From Isoetes taiwanensis (lineage: Eukaryota > Streptophyta > Lycopodiopsida > Isoetales > Isoetaceae), in assembly GCA_021234155.1 (NCBI GenBank), contig JAJEKV010000009.1:12592546-12656545 (forward strand): a stretch of DNA of 64,000 nucleotides. Reading direction: 5' to 3'. Below the pieces are notes generated by a model. The model was given only the letters and a program-made list of their open reading frames with translations, was not told the DNA's origin and did no database searches. The translations under genes were made by a program, and so were the position numbers. Position 1 is the stretch's first letter. Each line of letters starts with the position of its first letter. Shown here one piece after another: positions 3,440 to 55,835 of this stretch.

Positions 3440-4738
3440 TTATAGCATGTCCAAATCAAGCTCTAGGTTCACACGTTCTTCATCATCTTCCAAGGTAATG
3501 TAAGAGCTGGAAGAAGGTGGCCTCATCTTATAACCAACAAGGCAATAGAATGCAAGGGTCACCAATTCAACACCAAGGTAACGAGTCCATTCGAATTGAT
3601 AAGGCACAACAGAGCTGAGGGCAGATGCTAGAATTCTAGTACTATAGAGATAAACAGCCACAGCAATGTAATAGATTCTGAATTGGCTAAGCTTGGCCAG
3701 ATTTATTGCAGCCTTTCCATCGGTGCGTGATGCTTCGCGAAGATTTCTAATGGACCAAGCAATTGGCAATAGAACTCCAATGCAACACACTATATCAATT
3801 AGCAGAAATATATGCTTCCATTGTGTCCATGAGGCTTCTGCAGGTCCCATTTCCTCAAGTTCTACACTTGCTACATTTGCCAACACTTGAAGTGGTATCA
3901 CAACCATCAATACCTTTTTTTCTCTTCCTTGCAAATATGGCTTTAAATATGACCACCCTGCTCCTATCAAAATTAACACTGTAAATAACATTACCCCCTT
4001 CAATATCCCCATTAAATAAAATACCATGTCCCATCCATGCCCGGTTCCTGTTCTTTCTGTATATAACTCATCCTCTGATTCTGTCAACAGATTCAAGGCT
4101 TTTACAAAAACTAATATACCCATGAGTATATGAATTCTGTGAATGTTTTCTTTTCGTTTGACGCATGTGAATAACCATGCTCCTGTTGCTACAACATATA
4201 TAATGAAAAAGGAAAAATATAAAATTGGTAACTGAGTCTGGCCTATTGACAGATAGTCTTTCTTGTTACTCGACATTAAATTATATGTAGAAGTTGTTAC
4301 CTTCATCCCCAATTTAACTTGAGGATGGCAGTTGGCGAGAAATATAAAATATTCCCCTGCTTTTGGCACTGAATAGGTGTTATTGTAATTCTTTTCTTTG
4401 ATTTCATGCAGTGACACCAGATTAATTACAGAATTACTGTATAAAATACACTGACCTCGATTTTTTTCTGATTCATCCACTGCTTGCAAAAATTCCTCTG
4501 ATGTGCTCATGAAAAATCCTATAAGCGATAAATTCGTGCCTTCTGGGGCTTCTAACTGCAAATCAGATACACTCATCTCTAATTTCCCTTTGTCAGTGAA
4601 GCCAAAATTTTCAAACATGATTAGAGATCTGTCATCTCCGCTTATTACGCTTTGTCTGATCTTGGCATGGCAACTTACTAGACTTGATAACAGAACAAGG
4701 GCCCAAATCTGTAAAGAAATTCCTAACATCTTAGCCAT
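3440..4738 (-). CDS. Seven-transmembrane GOST/GPR107-family protein
   Basis: A 432-residue intronless reading frame with the full architecture of the lung seven-transmembrane receptor (GPR107/GPR108, GOST) family, whose plant members include Arabidopsis candidate GPCRs CAND6 and CAND7. Residues 1-25 form a signal peptide ending SCHA. Residues 26-168 are a lumenal/extracellular GOLD-like domain with two cysteines (C97, C137) and N-glycosylation sites such as NNT near 119. Seven hydrophobic segments follow at about 170-192, 202-219, 239-262, 276-292, 309-330, 353-375 and 385-404, then an acidic tail. Family members act in the Golgi/endosomal system; a true G-protein role is debated. The first ATG gives the signal peptide directly, so this start is preferred. 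Length matches the family. The Ser-rich, acidic C-terminus is ordinary. Confidence 0.93.
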   Translation of the reverse strand: MAKMLGISLQIWALVLLSSLVSCHAKIRQSVISGDDRSLIMFENFGFTDKGKLEMSVSDLQLEAPEGTNLSLIGFFMSTSEEFLQAVDESEKNRGQCILYSNSVINLVSLHEIKEKNYNNTYSVPKAGEYFIFLANCHPQVKLGMKVTTSTYNLMSSNKKDYLSIGQTQLPILYFSFFIIYVVATGAWLFTCVKRKENIHRIHILMGILVFVKALNLLTESEDELYTERTGTGHGWDMVFYLMGILKGVMLFTVLILIGAGWSYLKPYLQGREKKVLMVVIPLQVLANVASVELEEMGPAEASWTQWKHIFLLIDIVCCIGVLLPIAWSIRNLREASRTDGKAAINLAKLSQFRIYYIAVAVYLYSTRILASALSSVVPYQFEWTRYLGVELVTLAFYCLVGYKMRPPSSSSYITLEDDEERVNLELDLDML

Positions 4739-4810
4739 GCTAGGAAAGAAAAGGATCTCTTACCGGAGTGGAGGAATGGAAGGATTATGAAGGCCAAATA
4801 GAAGGCCATA

Positions 4811-12491: not shown

Positions 12492-12559
12492 TACAGTAAG
12501 ACAATTGCGATTTACAGGTAGTTATCTTTCCTTTTTTTTGTTGGGGTTCATTTGCTGCC

Positions 12560-13252
12560 ATGGAAATTTCTGAGGTTTCACCTTCTGAATTATTCCCTGT
12601 TTCCCTTTCTAAATCTTTCAGTTCCAATTCAATGAGGTCCACAAATAACAGCACTCTGAACCTCAAAGTTGAAACTCCAAAGGTGGATTTTCTTCTAGAA
12701 GACCATTGGCATTTTAACTCAGTTTTGAGCCCAAAAGGATCTCTTGAAAACATCATAGTTCCCAATGAAGAGGAGATGAAAGCCCAGCTTGAAGAAGAAA
12801 GGAAGGAGATGCAAAAAGTTTTCAATACTCTTGATTTAAATGGAGATGGTTTTATCAGCATTGAAGAGCTGCAGGAACTCATGGCAAAGCTGGACAGTCC
12901 TAGCTCTGCAGAGGAAATTGAGCTTATGCTAAAATCTGTGGATGAAAATGGTGATGGATTGGTTGATTTTGAGGAGTTCGTTTCTTTGCATAAAAGTCCA
13001 AAGAATGAAGAGGAGGAAGAGCAGGAGTTATATCAAGCTTTCCGCCTTTTCGACCGCAATAATGATGGATTCATCAGTGCTCAAGAGCTTCATACTGTGC
13101 TAACTAATTTAGGCTTTGTCCAGCAACACAAGGTAAAGGAATGTGAGCACATGATAAGAGGAGTGGATTCTGATGGAGATGGTTTGGTAAATTTCTCAGA
13201 GTTTAAGCTCATGATGTCTCCCAGGCAGTCTGCACCTATACCTTCATTCTAG
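12560..13252 (+). CDS. Calmodulin-like protein, four EF-hands, N-terminal extension
   Basis: A 230-residue intronless CML. Four canonical 12-residue calcium loops occupy residues 92-103 (DLNGDGFISIEE), 128-139 (DENGDGLVDFEE), 165-176 (DRNNDGFISAQE) and 203-214 (DSDGDGLVNFSE); each has Asp at position 1 and Glu at 12, so all four should bind calcium. A Ser-rich extension of about 80 residues precedes them and holds the motif DHWHFNSVLSP (48-58), which recurs in the other long CMLs here. No myristoylation or prenylation signal is visible. Such proteins are calcium sensors without enzymatic activity; the target is unknown. A TATA box lies 70 bp upstream. It is the intact relative of the duplicated pair at 20765 and 55120. 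Confidence 0.93.
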   Translation: MEISEVSPSELFPVSLSKSFSSNSMRSTNNSTLNLKVETPKVDFLLEDHWHFNSVLSPKGSLENIIVPNEEEMKAQLEEERKEMQKVFNTLDLNGDGFISIEELQELMAKLDSPSSAEEIELMLKSVDENGDGLVDFEEFVSLHKSPKNEEEEEQELYQAFRLFDRNNDGFISAQELHTVLTNLGFVQQHKVKECEHMIRGVDSDGDGLVNFSEFKLMMSPRQSAPIPSF

Positions 13253-23940: not shown

Positions 23941-24848
23941 TGATATGGGGGCATGCTAGGGGGAGTGGTCCAGAGAAGAAATGAACTAAGGCAATGGGGT
24001 GTTTGGAAAACAATGGTTAAGGCAATGGGGTAAATGGTTATAAGATATCATGAGCATGGGAGCAAGATATTTTGTATGACCATTAAAGCAAGAGAAAAAG
24101 GGAAATATTCTATTTCTAAAGATAAGGAAAAATATCTTTAAAGGGGCAAGATATTAACCTATAAGAAAGGGAAAAGTTACTATTTGTGCAACAAAAAGTG
24201 GAAACGGCCGAATAGCAGGTAACGATTTCTGGAGATCGAAATAGCAGGGACACAAATAGCTTTATCTGCACAAAAAGGCCCGATTGGGCTATAACTGAAG
24301 CCATCGGCCAGTTTAGGAACACAGCGGAGCTTCAGACTTGGTTTTCCGGCTGCTGCAGACAAAACCCGGCACTCTGATATACCTGTTTGTGATTCCGGTA
24401 GCAGCAACTTAGTTGATGGGTGCTTCATTTCAAATCCGACCTGCTTCTCTCAGTTTGAGACGAAGATCTGGCAAGGGGGGGGCTTCAGGATCTGCGGTGG
24501 TTGCAGGCTTTCCTGATAAGCCTGAGATTTTAGTCGAGTTCTAATCCTTGGTGGTTGGATTGAGCCTAACTGAACCCATTGTGATTGTAAGATTGGTTTG
24601 ATCCTGTGCAGAAGGGAAAATAGGCCTGGGTCAATTCCTTTCATCCCTTGGAAATTGTCTTAGTTCTTGTTCTGGATCCGGTTGGGTGGTGAACTGGATG
24701 CCCAAATCCATTGGTTGTGGAAACCTAGATGATTGGTTGTGGAAACTAAGTTGATTGTTCTTATCAAAGACTGTCTTCTTCTTATCTTGTCTATATAATT
24801 GTGGATCAAAGTAGTCACGTCTTTAAGCTTTTCCCTTAAAGCGTATCA
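23941..24848 (+). repeat. 5' LTR
   Basis: 908 bp, TG...CA. Almost the whole length aligns with 26034-26934. Relative to the 3' LTR it has several one-base insertions (for example CCGAATAGCAGG versus TAGAATAGCGG). Confidence 0.95.
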
Positions 24849-26033: not shown

Positions 26034-26934
26034 TGATATGGGGGCATGCTAGGGGGAGTGGTCCAGAGAAGAAATGAACTAAGGCAATGGGGTGTTTGGA
26101 AAACAATGGTTAAGGCAATGGGGTAAATGGTTATAAGATATCATGAGCATGGGAGCAAGATATTTTGTATGACCATTAAAGCAAGAGAAAAAGGGAAATA
26201 TTCTATTTCTAAAGATAAGGAAAAATATCTTTAAAGGGGCAAGATATTAACCTATAAGAAAGGGAAAAGTTACTATTTGTGCAACAAAAAGTGGAAACGT
26301 AGAATAGCGGTAACGATTTACGGAGATCGAAATAAGCGAGGGGACACAAATAGCTTTATCGCACAAAAAGGCCGATTGGGCTATAAAATCGAAGCCATCG
26401 GCCGGTTTAGGAACCATGTGAACTTCGGACTTAGTTTTCCGGTTTCTTTGCCGGACAAAACCCGGCACTCGATATACATTTGTGATTCCGTAGCAACAAC
26501 TTAGTTGATGGGTGCTTCATTTCAAATCCGACCTGCTTCTCTCGGTTTGAGGCGAAGATCGGCAAAAGGGGGCTTGGGATCTGCGGTGGTTGCGGGCTTT
26601 CCGTAAGCACGAGATTTTAGTCGAGTTCTAATCCTTGGTGGTTGGATTGAGCCTAATGAACCCATTGTGATTGTAAGATTGGTTTGATCCCATGCGAGAA
26701 GGAAAATAGGCCTGGGTCAATTCCTTTCATCCCTTGGAAATTGTCTTAGTTCTTGTTCTGGATCCGGTTGGGTGGTGAACTGGATGCCCAAATCCATTGG
26801 TTGTGGAAACCTAGATGATTGGTTGTGGAAACTAAGTTGATTGTTCTTATCAAAGACTGTCTTCTTCTTATCTTGTCTATATAATTGTGGATCAAAGTAG
26901 TCACGTCTTTAAGCTTTTCCCTTAAAGCGTATCA
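26034..26934 (+). repeat. 3' LTR
   Basis: 901 bp, aligned throughout with 23941-24848; ends AAAGCGTATCA followed by the TTATC target duplication. Confidence 0.95.
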
Positions 26935-26939
26935 TTATC

Positions 26940-27503
26940 CTTATAAGCAACTACTATAACGTCAAGGAAAGTTGGTATCTATTCTAGTTTATCAGCCAAT
27001 GAATGGCTGCCATGTGGCAACCATTCTATCCAAGAATGGCAAATGGATTTGCCATTCTCAGATGACCTGTTGCAGCCAGTTGCAGGGAAATTATACACAA
27101 TCAATTTCAGTCAGATTTACAGCAAATTTCACAGCAAATTATACACAGCAAATTATTTCTGTATTGCCATAAACTGCATTATTTCTGTAAGCAGTAAACA
27201 TGTTTCTGTATAAACATGTTTCCTCATTCTCATTCTCATTCTCATTCATATTGCATAAACTGAAAGCAGTATTGCCTTAAACGCTAAACTGTAAACTATT
27301 ATATTATGGACATGTTTCTGTATTTTTCTGATAACAAATCTAAGCAGGCTGCTGGCGAGTTACCAGACCAGCCAACCAACAAAGCTCCCTAAAAAAATTT
27401 CCCCAATTGTATTGCAGGAATATACAAGTGTACCTGCAATATCAAAATTAAAAGACATCATTATGATGAATTCAATGCAAATACTAAAACAAATATTCCC
27501 GTA
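26940..27503. other. Spacer with a (CATTCT)n microsatellite
   Basis: No gene recognised. CATTCT repeats at 27222-27246; ACAGCAAATT repeats near 27120-27150. The left edge is the downstream side of the recombinase-like gene and should hold its 3' UTR. Confidence 0.45.
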
Positions 27504-29764
27504 TCAATTATTTTTCGGATTGATATTGATAGTAAAAGAGCAATTGTTGTAAACAATTTTACTACGTTTTTCTGCCTCCACGCACATCTTCTCCAAGATA
27601 TCAGCATCAGGCCAGATCGTTTCATTTATTAGTTTATTGTGGCGATCACCCATTTGACTGTCTTCCTCTTCCAGAATTCGCTTACCTTCATAAACACTAG
27701 CTACTAAAATTAAATAACAAAATTACTAAGCATACAATATTATAAACTCAACTACTAAATTAAATGTACAGATAACTAATCGTACCTATTTTCTGAACAG
27801 CATTTATGCCAACGCCAACACTTGGACCAGCACTCACACAGCTGCCACGATCGGTGGCAGAATTTTGTACTAAAATAAAATGAAAAGTTAGTAAGTGTAC
27901 CATACAAAATAATACAATATACCAAACCGTACCTGTTCTAACATTGGTAATAGCGTTCATAGCAACAATGCCACTTGGATCAGCAGTCACACAACTGGTA
28001 GGATTAATGGCGGGATTTTGTACCTGTATTAATGCATCTTCATAGCGCATTGTGCCTCCGGCTATAACTTGACCATGGCAAAGAACAACTCTGACATCTC
28101 CACTTTGGTCATATCTTTTATATGCATCTATACTCTTATGGCCTGTTATTTCCATACCAATGTCTTCTGGAACGCCTGCAACCAAGTGATAGATGATGCC
28201 CTACAAGACTTATTGTCATAATCGCCACCTAATCCAGCATTTGTAGCCATTTGTTTAAGCCATTTCCTCATTGTTCCTTCAGAACAGTGATTTATACTAT
28301 ACCAAACATGAGAGATATGCCCGCTAATCGGTGTTGAAAACACATACCTGCCACCAAACTCGTCATCCAGCTCATAGAGCGCTAAATGGCTCTCAAGACA
28401 CTCCCAAGTATAAAGGACATCATTTTCCCTACATTTTATAGTAGCCCTAAAATCTTCCGCTTTGTAATGGTTCTTATCAACATGGTGATTCTTGTTAATA
28501 GTCTCGGAAAATGCAAAATGCTTACCAAAAGCATCTTCATCAAACCAAAACATAGCATCCCGTAACTTTGCTAACTCTTTTTCGCCTCGCACAAGAAATC
28601 TAGACATGCAATAGTATCCAAACCGTCTTTGCAAGCCATATCACCTGATGCGCTTCATGAGCCAAGATAACTGCTTCGTCAGCTGCACTAAGAATCTTGG
28701 ATTTCTTGCGCTGATTTACTTTTCCAGCCTTACCAGATCTTTGCATCGCTACTTCCAAATTGATTACAGCCTGTAAAAAGAAAGGATGGGTATGTCAAAT
28801 GCCATCTCTCTATTACTTGATTGAGCAGATCTACGGTTTCTCTCCATCCGGATCATAGGGATTGAAGCATAAAAATAAGGCCCGCAACCTGCACAATTCT
28901 ACAATTAGCAATACATACAAAAAATATAAATATAAAAAAAAAACATAATAAATAAAGAAATATACAAAGGACTTACGTTTCAGGAGGGAATAGAGTTCCA
29001 TCAAGATGTTGAATCTGCAAGATGAACGTCTCGAGCATGCCTGCAAACTCCTTCAAATCTAGACCTTCGATTGGAATATCGATACTAAACCCTTTAGCAG
29101 ACCTCCAAGCATCAAATTTGTGTCGTGCCCATCCGTCCTTCTCTTTAGAGTTATTTTCACCACCTTTTCCAATAAGCCTCTGGATTTCGTCATCAATTTC
29201 CAATAATAGACCACATTTTAAGATTGTTTTTGCATGCGGATGCTTCTTTCTTGTTGCAGGGGCTGCTTTTACTACAGGGGCTGCTGTAACTACTGAAGCA
29301 ACAGGTGGACAAGTACTAGGAGCAGGTGGACAAGTACTGGGCAAGGGCGGTGAATGCACTACTATCTCCTCCTCCCTAGCAAACGAATGTATCACTATCT
29401 CCTCATCCCTAGCAGTAGTCGAGAACTGTGAAAGATCAAGCGAAAAACTGGGAGTAGCATCACAAGAACTGCTCACAATATTGCTGCCAACAACAAACAT
29501 TCTTAGGCTGGCTATGGACATAATTAGAGCCACATGTAGAGGCGATTTGTCCAATATTAGAAATATTATTAACAACATTACATGGAATTTCTGTCAATGG
29601 CAGCAATGCACCTAAAAACTACAAAGAATTAATATACTGAACACAAAGTACCATATCAAATTTAAAGAATACTTACCTCTACCTCTACCGTGACCTCTAC
29701 CACGACATGCAATATCTCCATGACCAGTACGGCTTCCACGAGCTCCAGATTGTTGAAGCATATC
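27504..29764 (-). pseudogene. Spliced DUF3504/Crypton-like tyrosine recombinase gene, frameshifted
   Basis: Exons on the minus strand: 29764-29677 (MLQQSGARGSRTGH..., Arg-Gly rich), 29611-28977, 28888-~28824, 28770-27933, 27869-27786 and 27703-27504 (stop at 27504). Donors are mostly GTAAGT or GTACG and acceptors T-rich AG. Exon 2 carries GWARHKFDAWR...LDGTLFPPET, like the N-terminal core-binding part of DUF3504 proteins (ZMYM, KIAA1958, Crypton recombinases). Exon 4 carries Arg-I in FLVRGEKEL (codon 28589-28587), box II NKSCRASSITWL with Arg-II at 28202-28200 but Lys where His is usual, the third-box His in TGHKS (28140-28138) and the Tyr in AYKRYD (28113-28111). At least three frame changes (near 29500, 28640, 28183) argue for decay, or for sequence errors. 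Confidence 0.72.
27786..28022 (-). repeat. Duplicated exon-sized segment in the recombinase gene
   Basis: A 90-nt coding segment ending at 27933 (VQNPAINPTSCVTADPSG...) and the separate 84-nt exon 27869-27786 (VQNSATDRGSCVSAGPSV...) are clear relatives with the same splice phase on both sides. The final exon joins in the same phase and ends NNCSFTININPKNN. This is a tandem exon duplication that kept the frame. Confidence 0.75.
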
Positions 29765-29821
29765 CTGAAAATTTGTAACAGAAGGAAACAATAAAAAAAA
29801 CTTATATAGAGTCATACAAAA

Positions 29822-30250
29822 CCTACAAGAACTCGTATATGCAAGATCTTTGCCTTAAATAAATAGGAAATGTAGAAGCTACAGGAAAATAACTTACAAT
29901 TAAACGAGGTTCAGTCGAAAATCCACTCCAAAAACATGCAACCTTCAAGAACCAGCAAACTAAGAGCAGATTACAAAGCGATTTACCACGATTTACAGAT
30001 AAAGACTTACAAGTAAATGATTATACAGAGGAAAATGCACTCCAGAAGACAATGCTGCAATCTAGAATCCTTAAAGACAGCACGAACTCAGATCTTTAGG
30101 ATCTTGGATGAAGAAAAACGACTCTGATGAAGACAAATGCCTCAAATCCTCACAAACGATCTTCTACGCCATATATCGCCATAGCTGCACCATCTGCGCC
30201 ATGGCAGGATCTTCTTTAGCTGGGCGCCATTTCTGCGCTAAAAATCCCTC
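29822..30250 (-). other. Probable 5' leader exons of the recombinase gene
   Basis: Two introns are visible on the minus strand: GTAAGTCTTT (30010) to TTCTTGAAG (29943), and GTAAGTTATT (29897) to CTTGTAG (29823). The exon between them, 29942-29898, has no useful frame. Sequence upstream of 30011 has ATGGCGC-type codons and moderate GC, as expected near a transcription start. An in-frame extension from an ATG at 29815 into exon 29764 is also possible. Confidence 0.5.
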
Positions 30251-30409
30251 TCCGGCATGAAACTCCGCGTCTCTTCTTTCCTTGACGTCATGGAATGGCA
30301 AAAGGGAGCCCATTCCACATCACGTAATGGTCTTCGCTTTGAAGTTGTTTGTGCTCGCATGTACATTCATACATCTACTCAAGGCCTCCCCATTAACAGA
30401 AGTTGGGCT

Positions 30410-33185: not shown

Positions 33186-33866
33186 CTACCATTGTTTGCT
33201 GAGATGAGGGGATGACATCATCAACTTGAATTCAAAAAAATTTATCAAGCCATCACCATCACAGTCTAGTTGTGCAATAATGTGCTCACATTGTTGGACA
33301 TTGGGACCATGCAAGAGGCCAAGGTTGGAAAGCAGAAGAGCCAACTCTTGAGCACTAATAAACCCATCTTTATTTAGGTCGAAAATGCCAAATGCCTGCA
33401 ATAGATCCTCTTCGTCTTCTGTGTCGTCCTCACAAAACAGAGAAGAAAATTCCTGGAACTCCACAAATCCATCGGAATTGGGGTCTAAAGTTTCCATCAA
33501 AATGGAAAGCTCTTCTTCGGAGGAGTATTGGTTTAGCTTTATGAGAAGGCTGCGTATTTCGGGAAGGCTGAGTCTGCCATCTCCGTTTTCATCCATTGCT
33601 GCAAAAACTTGGTGCGCTTCCTTTTGTTTGGCAGCGGGGCAAGGCCTTGGGCTGATCTCGGGAGAGGAATTCTCCCATTCCGATGTGCTTGGCGAAGGGG
33701 AAGAAGGCCGAAATACAGAGTGATAGTGCCAATTGTAAATAAAAAACTCAAACAAACGCAGCATGGCTTCCAAATTTCTGCTCTCATGTCTCATCTTCCA
33801 TATTATAGCGCCCGTTTCCCATTTCCTTGAAGGTGCCTCAAGACTTAAGTTAGCCTTTTCAGTCAC
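33186..33866 (-). CDS. Calmodulin-like protein with hydrophobic N-terminal extension
   Basis: A 226-residue frame with four complete EF-hand loops at 92-103 (DENGDGRLSLPE), 128-139 (DPNSDGFVEFQE), 163-174 (DLNKDGFISAQE) and 201-212 (DCDGDGLINFFE). The N-terminal part contains MLRLFEFFIYNWHYHSVFRP (35-54), an aromatic, hydrophobic stretch carrying the W-x-[FY]-x-x-V motif shared with the CMLs at 12560 and 37961. That motif could be a membrane- or partner-binding patch; this is inference. The true start could be Met1, Met25 or Met35: Met35 sits right before the conserved stretch, and the 24 residues after Met1 look unlike the relatives. No TATA box is obvious upstream. Confidence 0.9.
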   Translation of the reverse strand: MTEKANLSLEAPSRKWETGAIIWKMRHESRNLEAMLRLFEFFIYNWHYHSVFRPSSPSPSTSEWENSSPEISPRPCPAAKQKEAHQVFAAMDENGDGRLSLPEIRSLLIKLNQYSSEEELSILMETLDPNSDGFVEFQEFSSLFCEDDTEDEEDLLQAFGIFDLNKDGFISAQELALLLSNLGLLHGPNVQQCEHIIAQLDCDGDGLINFFEFKLMMSSPHLSKQW

Positions 33867-37903: not shown

Positions 37904-37960
37904 GGCATTGCAAAATGTAGTTTGAGTGTGTGTGGAATTGAATTGAATTGGTTTTGAAGA

Positions 37961-38581
37961 ATGAATGGTAAGACAAGGAAGCGTTTGGAGGTGCAGATTC
38001 CGGAAGAAGCAGTAGTGCCATGGATGGATTACAATTGGCAATTCCGGTGCGTAATGACGCCTTCTCCTTCTCCTTTTGCAAATCGTTTGCGGCCCCGTTT
38101 TGGAGCGCAGGATTTTTACGCCCACGAAATTGAGACCCTTTTTACCTCTCTGGACCTCGACAGAGATGGACGGCTCAGCCAGTCCGAGGTCCGGCATCTA
38201 ACGGCCCAGCTTGGCCAGCAGATCTCCGACGACGAACTCCTCACTTTGATGCATATTCTAGACCCCCACGGTACTGGTTTTGTAGATTTAGCAGCTTTTA
38301 AATCCGTTTTGTTGCACCCCGATGGCTCTGAATCAGACGACGACGAAGAAGAGGAGAATTTGCTCCACACTTTTCGTATTTTTGATGGCAATAACGATGG
38401 GTTTATCAGTGCCCCTGATTTGGCCGCTGCCTTTTCTCGGCTTGGGTTTTTGCAAGGCCGGAGTTTGCAAGAATGCCAGAAAATAATTGAAAATGTTGAT
38501 TTGGACAAAGATGGAAAAATAAGCTTCTGGGAATTCAAGACTATGATGTCATTAAAAACTGCCAACGTGGCAAAAAGTTGA
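37961..38581 (+). CDS. Calmodulin-like protein with one degenerate EF-hand
   Basis: A 206-residue intronless CML. Loop 1 (65-76, DLDRDGRLSQSE), loop 3 (142-153, DGNNDGFISAPD) and loop 4 (180-191, DLDKDGKISFWE) look able to bind calcium, loop 3 with Asp instead of Glu at position 12. Loop 2 (101-112, DPHGTGFVDLAA) has Thr at position 5 and Ala at position 12 and should not bind calcium. The N-terminus has the family motif YNWQFRCVMTPSP (24-36). An acidic linker (SDDDEEEE, 125-132) separates the lobes. The coding sequence is visibly richer in G and C than the sister genes. Promoter elements (G-box, TATA) are well placed. It is likely a calcium sensor with altered stoichiometry. Confidence 0.92.
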   Translation: MNGKTRKRLEVQIPEEAVVPWMDYNWQFRCVMTPSPSPFANRLRPRFGAQDFYAHEIETLFTSLDLDRDGRLSQSEVRHLTAQLGQQISDDELLTLMHILDPHGTGFVDLAAFKSVLLHPDGSESDDDEEEENLLHTFRIFDGNNDGFISAPDLAAAFSRLGFLQGRSLQECQKIIENVDLDKDGKISFWEFKTMMSLKTANVAKS

Positions 38582-54389: not shown

Positions 54390-55835
54390 GTACAGTACAG
54401 TTAATTGAACCATTGGATAGGCCATCATGGAGGGTGAGGATAGCTTTACCCGTGGAAAAGCGGTAGAAAAAGGGCCACATTTAACATATTGGTTTTCTGG
54501 AGATTTATTTCTTCGTTTCATTTGCTAAGTTAGCCTAGATCGTTCGCGGTCGGTGGGTCTAAACCTACACATAGGCTCTCAGCTGGGGCCAGATTCGATA
54601 CAATGGTGCTTCCGGATTTTTTTCTCAGCTAAGTATAAAAATAAGGTCGTCTTAATTCTGAATCATACAATCTGAGTTGCCATGCCAAAACAGACAACTC
54701 AAAATATCGGCCCCACAACTTGGCTAAAAATCTTTCGATGGTGTATGGCTATAATTTTGTGGCCTGCTTCTCGGAACTTGCAAATACAAGTACAAAACAG
54801 TACAATATCAGGCAGCTTCGTCTTTTTTTTTATTCTTTTCACTTCTTTTTCTAGATTATTAGTCCGAAGCAGTCGGGGAAGCAGTTTGCTTAATACATAG
54901 CCATCTCTTGCTTGCGGGTCATCTATTGCTTGCAGATATTTGTGGGTTTCACCTTCTCAGAATTTTCTAAGAATTTTGGTTCTATCTTATATAATCAACG
55001 AAGTCCAGAATAACATCATAGTGAACCTCAAGCTAAAAACTTTAGGGGCGGATTTTCTTCTAGAGGATCACTGACATTTTGATTCAGTTCTGAGCCCAAA
55101 AGGGTCCCTGGAAAACAACATGCTTTCCGTTGAAAAAAAAATGCAAGCTCAGTTTGATGAAGAGAGGAAGGAGATGCAGAAAGTTTTCAACGTTCTTGAT
55201 TTGAATGGAGATGGTTTTATCAGCATTGAAGAGCTGCAGCAACTCATGGCAAAGTTAGACTGTCCTAGCCCTGCAGACGAAGTTCAGCTTATGCTAAAAG
55301 CTGTGGACGAAAATGGGGATGGCTTAGTTGATTTTGAGGAATTTTACTGTTTGTATAAAAGTTCAAACAATGAAGAGGAGGAAGAGCAGGAATTATATCA
55401 AGCTTTCCGTATTTTCGACCGCAATAATGATGGATTCATCTGTGCTCAAGAGCTTCATGCTGTGCTCTCTAATTTAGGATTTATTCAACAACACAAACAC
55501 AAGGTAAGAGAATGTGAGCACATGATAAGAAGGGTGGATTCTGATGGCGATGGTTTGGTAAATTTCACAGAATTTAAGCTCATGATGTCTCCAAGACAAT
55601 CTTCTCCACCCATACCTTCATTCTAAAACTTAGGATGATTGGTGCATCTAATCTTTGTCTTGGAAATGGGATGGTATTATTAGCACTAAAGCTTGTATAT
55701 TCTACAATTTTATTGCAGCGGCCCATTTCTTTTGTTCTACTCAGTGCCCCGTTTGTTTAAGATAATCAGTGCAAAAGTTAATATGGATGTTGAAGATACC
55801 TAGTGAAAAAAAGAAATATATTTTATCACAGATAA
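54390..55835 (+). repeat. Segmental duplication, inverted copy B
   Basis: The partner of 20752-21755, in opposite orientation about 33 kb away. It carries the complete four-EF-hand CML with 3' flank GATACCTAGTGAAAA at 55794. Near 54485-54590 its sequence differs by an insertion or replacement relative to copy A. Confidence 0.88.
55120..55626 (+). CDS. Calmodulin-like protein, short form, four EF-hands
   Basis: A 168-residue frame with four canonical loops: 27-38 (DLNGDGFISIEE), 63-74 (DENGDGLVDFEE), 100-111 (DRNNDGFICAQE) and 140-151 (DSDGDGLVNFTE). It is close to the C-terminal 160 residues of the CML at 12560. Upstream DNA still aligns with that gene's N-terminal extension, but the extension is closed by TGA at 55072-55074 where the relative has TGG (Trp50), and the ancestral ATG is lost. 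The first usable ATG is 55120, giving a calmodulin-sized protein. TATATAAT at 54988 lies inside former coding sequence and is placed to act as a TATA box; that is inference. It could be a shortened working gene or an expressed pseudogene; the clean EF-hands favour the former. Confidence 0.8.
   Translation: MLSVEKKMQAQFDEERKEMQKVFNVLDLNGDGFISIEELQQLMAKLDCPSPADEVQLMLKAVDENGDGLVDFEEFYCLYKSSNNEEEEEQELYQAFRIFDRNNDGFICAQELHAVLSNLGFIQQHKHKVRECEHMIRRVDSDGDGLVNFTEFKLMMSPRQSSPPIPSF

Follow-up and report, generated by a model that had tools for sequence, protein, structure and literature searches.

One decayed copy of a multi-copy tyrosine recombinase (YR) DNA transposon, 3.36 kb in length, lies on the minus strand of the 64,000-nucleotide stretch of Isoetes taiwanensis DNA analyzed here (the window). 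We put at about 0.88 the probability that this element is a Crypton-like YR DNA transposon of a land plant, represented in the window by a dead copy. The observation cannot be put down to chance, because a search of its genome (1,658,258,908 bases in 1110 contigs) with the 164-amino acid window exon gave 150 scored matches among 1027 first-look candidates, the weakest with an E value of 8.7e-16; some loci contribute a second piece to this count. Roughly a dozen and a half relatives are close (more than about 50% identity), and most others are at about 30-46%. The sequences strongly support mobility by site-specific recombination: the YR homology, the common ends, the target motif, the empty sites and a head-to-tail junction can all be read directly.

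The window copy and its relatives

An earlier note, made from the letters of the window, had reported a Crypton-like recombinase gene with introns. The motifs that it named are present in minus-strand frames: GWARHKFDAWR...LFPPET at 28973-29593, VRGEKEL and NKSCRAS at 28146-28640, and TGHKS and AYKRYD at 27760-28200. The repeat unit (Table 1) is larger than the feature first reported (27504-30250). Its limits were mapped with ten copies fetched with their flanks. At the 3' side, similarity to the window copy ends at 26954-26962 in nine of the ten; at the 5' side it ends at 30316 in five of the ten, and manual refinement based on a shared CGTGATGTGGAATGG placed the window end at 30324. The putative roles of the Arg, Lys, Arg, His and Tyr residues, in the window and in the family, are assigned from YR motif spacing. 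The subterminal inverted repeat near the 3' end may be a recombinase binding site, and the two similar C-terminal stretches are probably a duplicated exon.

Table 1. Features of the window copy, in window coordinates
Feature	Coordinates	Strand	Remarks
Whole transposon copy	26959..30324	-	3366 nt including both terminal cores
Left core CGT	30322..30324	-	Context TTA-CGT-GATGTGG; core set by the empty sites of other copies
5' terminal palindrome	30276..30324	-	Collapsed to 49 nt here; up to 170 nt in other copies
Proposed exon 1, Arg/Gly-rich, ATG start	29677..29761	-	From sequence reading alone
Proposed exon 2, core-binding-like	28977..29611	-	Seems frameshifted; splice donor kept in relatives
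GT-AG intron	28889..28976	-	Position shared with relatives
Proposed exon 3 up to nucleophile Tyr, catalytic part	28111..28888	-	Broken frames
Candidate catalytic Arg	28587-28589		Exon 3
Candidate catalytic Lys	28209-28211		Exon 3
Candidate catalytic Arg	28200-28202		Exon 3
Candidate catalytic His	28138-28140		Exon 3
Candidate catalytic Tyr	28111-28113		Exon 3
Two similar C-terminal stretches	27796..28023	-	72% identical, spacing 153
Last coding frame	27504..27722	-	End ...CSFTININPKNN
3' subterminal inverted repeat	27028..27063	-	GAATGG/CCATTC motifs; sequence conserved among other copies
Right core CGT	26959..26961	-	Context CTTTCCTTGA-CGT

The proposal that introns interrupt the gene was supported for the GT-AG intron after ...PPET, which recurs after ...PP[DE][TS] at one position in both main groups of relatives. 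Both splice sites were located in seven of the nine loci examined, with GT at all eight donors and AG at all eight acceptors. The note had also suggested a search for paralogs in the source genome, and this search found relatives with long open frames, reaching 531 amino acids. Over the YR core, dN/dS was 0.052, 0.127, 0.183 and 0.214 in the four of eight pairs that could be estimated; dS was near 1.5 in two of these four, and the remaining pairs were saturated at synonymous sites. Compared with its relatives, the window copy has frame changes at ~28,830 to 28,790, near 28,640 and near 28,170. Reading by eye adds a stop soon past the start of exon 3, and apparently a further shift in exon 2 near 29,480. 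Because its reading frame is broken at several points relative to the other copies, the window copy is decayed, as the note had suspected, and dead.

Distant members of the family share a C-terminal motif resembling ISGN.IENIVIHVG / ISGGTFQNCSIVMP, present in the last coding frame of the window and at the C-termini of L044, L047, L049 and L050. The surroundings of the window copy have features of their own. The scaffold that holds it is 24.7 Mb long, and its neighbors are ordinary plant genes: the window contains a local cluster of four EF-hand (calmodulin-like) genes (12500-13252, 33186-33866, 37958-38581 and 55075-55626) and a gene for a GOST-type membrane protein (3440-4759). About 25 bp past the transposon 3' end starts a direct repeat (26093-26934 and 24000-24848) whose two units are about 850 bp long and share 93% identity; the end of this repeat occurs at many genomic places, often in pairs about 2 kb apart that resemble LTR pairs.

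Ends, target and empty sites

The copies read begin with YGT-GATGTGGAATGG at the left and finish with CTTTCCTTGA-CGT at the right. Twenty stretches beyond the ten fetched copies were picked by their similarity to the element ends, so the end motifs within these twenty are present by choice. The two bases before the left core lay outside the search sequence. Among 18 distinct left junctions, counted after dropping L013 and L029 (tandem) and L033 and L040 (repeated flanks), the base immediately before the core is A in 15 (chance 6.8e-6, against a background of 0.31), and the second base before it is G or T in 17.

Joined flanks were made for nine copies, among them L014, L015, L018, L023 and L024, and matching empty sites were found for three of the four insertions searched. 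The empty site of L026, in C148, matches 223 of 223 joined bases at 97% and reads ...GCATTACGTGATGAAAAG...; that of L025, ...CCTGATGTTAACAAAG..., matches at 84%, is located on the scaffold of L025 itself at a distance of 18 kb, and differs by an indel in the left flank near the joint. The full-length copy L019 sits in a dispersed repeat, for which 31 of 33 matches cross the junction; in the nine empty targets that were read, TTGA is followed by TGT in seven and by TAT in two. For the window copy, the genome gave 40 matches and no empty site, none of the matches running across the joint.

The insertion target is TGAYGT, which also terminates the element, and there is no other duplication. The right junction keeps CGT whereas the empty targets of L019 and L025 have TGT. 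The left junction retains the YGT of the target and the right junction brings the CGT of the element, which argues for conservative recombination within a short shared core. L026 by itself would be compatible with an 8-bp duplication, because its target shares ACGTGATG with the element, but the other empty-site cases exclude that reading.

These junctions bear on the idea that a DDE transposase moved the element with target duplication and that the YR gene is cargo. There is a fungal precedent in MarCry, a DDE-moved element with a YR as cargo, according to the part of the Crypton survey that treats it (PMC3212892). Direct repeats at both ends, and the 8-bp repeat that L026 would allow, fit such an origin, but the repeat is the same TGAYGT across different insertions and is partly owned by the element, the ends are not matching inverted repeats, and the right junction differs from the empty targets of L019 and L025 as just described. 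We consider cargo status extremely improbable, and retain the Crypton-like YR DNA transposon.

The extreme ends are not inverted repeats of each other, but CTTTCCTTGACGT at the 3' end has an inverted counterpart, ACGTCAAGGAAAG, located within the element at a distance of about 30 to 160 bp from the 5' end. A head-to-tail junction with a single core CGT is exact in L029 and occurs with mismatches in L013 and L042. Junctions of this type would be expected if a circle had integrated at an end already present, or from a dimer. Four short copies (L023-L026, 646-923 bp) retain both ends and are non-autonomous.

The earlier note had favored a resident or domesticated plant gene of Crypton origin, decaying in the window. 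The conserved introns, the purifying selection in four of eight pairs and the broken frames of the window copy would all suit such a gene, but introns and selection are equally expected of a living transposon, and 150 scored matches with shared sharp, fixed ends are not what a single locus without transposon ends would leave. The short non-autonomous copies with identical ends and the tandem junctions contradict domestication as well, and the empty sites count strongly against it, leaving it very improbable.

A model for movement of the Crypton-like transposon begins with an open copy elsewhere in the genome, which would give a spliced mRNA and then YR protein. By joining the two ends, the recombinase would release the element as a circle with CTTTCCTTGA-CGT-GATGTGGAATGG across its junction, and would then recombine this junction with a genomic TGA-YGT. 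After integration the left end would retain the YGT of the target and the right end would carry the CGT of the element, with no further duplication. We infer the circle, the activity of the enzyme and the service of the 5' palindrome as a binding or recombination site from the arrangement of these sequences.

Relationships of the recombinase

The assignment to Crypton-like tyrosine recombinases was borne out through the relatives, by their YR homology as well as by their ends and empty sites. In an alignment of ten family members, the Arg and the Lys-x-x-Arg are invariant in all ten rows, and the nucleophile Tyr is present in all nine rows that reach it; the His position holds His in six of nine rows and Gln in three. 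Gln replaces the His of the TGH box in the clade of L049, L050 and L051, which also has an in-frame insertion, probably an intron, between its TGQ box and the nucleophile Tyr.

Six of the ten aligned proteins match PF00589 (Phage_integrase) at E <= 0.1. When eight proteins were scored against the cut-off of 27.1 bits, L052 reached 31.5 bits and three others fell below it (25.4, 23.2 and 15.9 bits). Two of three family proteins match the phrog_1 integrase, at 4.5e-10 and 2.9e-8. The window exon alone matches no Pfam family. NCBIfam gave sub-threshold XerA matches only, a PDB profile search with the family alignment gave nothing at E <= 1, and none of 31 pattern matches in viral contigs proved by tblastn to be a relative. 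Ferritin matches from a single-protein PDB search (E 0.49 and worse) are due to chance.

The DUF3504 label of the earlier note, for which it proposed a check with the PF12012 profile, stands only as a distant relationship. At E <= 0.1 the profile matches two of the ten aligned proteins (best 0.045, below its cut-off), and the highest family score is 14.2 bits (L050) against a cut-off of 29.7; two other loci pass, at 33.4 and 31 bits. Family proteins align to one of these, L057, with about 24-29% identity over the main stretch (the best E was 3.5e-16 when the two loci were searched), and the distant link of the family to DUF3504 therefore stands. The passing loci (L056 and L057, at G000:C31 and C606) are intron-rich, contain stops in their matched frames and form a separate, more distant YR/DUF3504 lineage of the same genome. 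The Isoetes family thus shares sequence with these loci and a similar C-terminal layout with the DUF3504 proteins KIAA1958, ZMYM2-4, QRICH1 and WOC, but differs in scoring below the PF12012 cut-off, in keeping the nucleophile Tyr and in behaving as a mobile repeat.

The element might instead be the remnant of a YR retrotransposon of the DIRS, PAT or Ngaro type that has lost its reverse transcriptase. Dirs1-like elements have inverted repeats, their YR belongs to the same superfamily, and DIRS-type elements with a YR are reported from Viridiplantae in the portion of the literature drawn on here (PMC4157794). The 3.36 kb between the Isoetes ends, however, hold no visible split direct repeats, and no reverse transcriptase or DDE frame was recognized in the unit when the listed frames were read (the Pfam run covered the YR frames). 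The empty sites of long and short copies alike suit a YR DNA element, and we regard descent from a retrotransposon as highly unlikely.

A Crypton-like YR DNA transposon remains the preferred reading. Cryptons are defined by a YR, the lack of inverted terminal repeats and terminal direct repeats of 4 or 6 bp, in the relevant part of the 2011 survey by Kojima and Jurka (PMC3212892). As described there for CryptonF, S, A and I, they share with the Isoetes element a YR as the sole recognized enzyme, a recombination substrate formed by short direct repeats (4-6 bp) at the termini, derivatives that are non-autonomous, and a presumed circle. The differences are the host, since Table 1 of that survey lists fungi, animals, oomycetes and a diatom and no plants, and the large 5' palindrome, which is unmentioned in the parts of the survey used here. 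GCR1_C, the mark of CryptonF, is absent among the Pfam matches of the window exon and the family proteins, and the best Pfam match is PF00589 rather than DUF3504.

The 5' palindrome

Many copies have a 5' end that forms a palindrome about 100-170 nt long. At the natural junction in L029 the crossover lies within the stem, which extends from CTTTCCTTGACGT to ACGTCAAGGAAAG and folds at -51.1 kcal/mol versus -14.5 +/- 2.8 for shuffles (z -13.2); the palindrome of L014 alone gives a z of -16.5. The collapsed site of the window gives -1.9, and 10 of 200 shuffles fold as well. In other clades a palindrome occurs in the 5' region of six of 11 copies and is missing from five, compared with 0 of 55 shuffles and 0 of 11 downstream stretches. 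One arm is missing from some copies, as if a hairpin had been cut or deleted: L018 keeps the left arm, and L016 and L017 the right.

Attachment sites of integron cassettes (attC) offer a comparison, since recombination there occurs in one arm of a palindrome, at a core GTTRRRY. The Isoetes element resembles attC cassettes in that the crossover falls in one arm of the end palindrome, which the other end would complete in the circle, and in the variable length of the palindrome center. It differs in being eukaryotic, in encoding its own recombinase and in a core TGAYGT rather than GTTRRRY. By analogy, this land-plant lineage of YR DNA transposons might use a long 5' hairpin as its attachment site, with the palindrome completed at the circle junction, the crossover CGT within its stem, and recombination of a folded form, either cruciform or single-stranded. 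We consider this proposal unlikely as a whole, and action of the palindrome in folded form is speculative. In 15 copies the left and right arms are 0.744 identical within a copy versus 0.719 between copies, and the arms thus show little sign of joint change; between copies, left arms match left arms at 0.819 and right arms match right arms at 0.711. This comparison gives no help to an attC-like reading. Since the arms are not clearly co-changing, a duplex site with paired recombinase binding motifs is the plainer reading. If the folded-site proposal were nonetheless true, it would provide a eukaryotic parallel to integron cassette recombination.

Plant repeat tables give Crypton a row (PMC8729191, PMC6294377, PMC10722297) and a review names it among its classes (PMC11630846), in each case without a described element in the passages concerned. 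No description of a land-plant element of this kind was found in the open literature; subscription papers and Repbase were outside the scope of the search, and a prior description elsewhere is possible. As judged from its sequences, the Isoetes family represents a land-plant variant of the Crypton-like YR DNA transposons that is new and has well-defined limits. Being numerous and recently selected, it brings vascular plants into the range of the Crypton class, and its palindromic end adds a new structural element that needs explaining. Crypton integration becomes open to direct testing through the exact target, the empty sites, the short copies and the natural circle-like junction, and in plant genome annotation automatic Crypton labels can give way to a defined YR DNA element.
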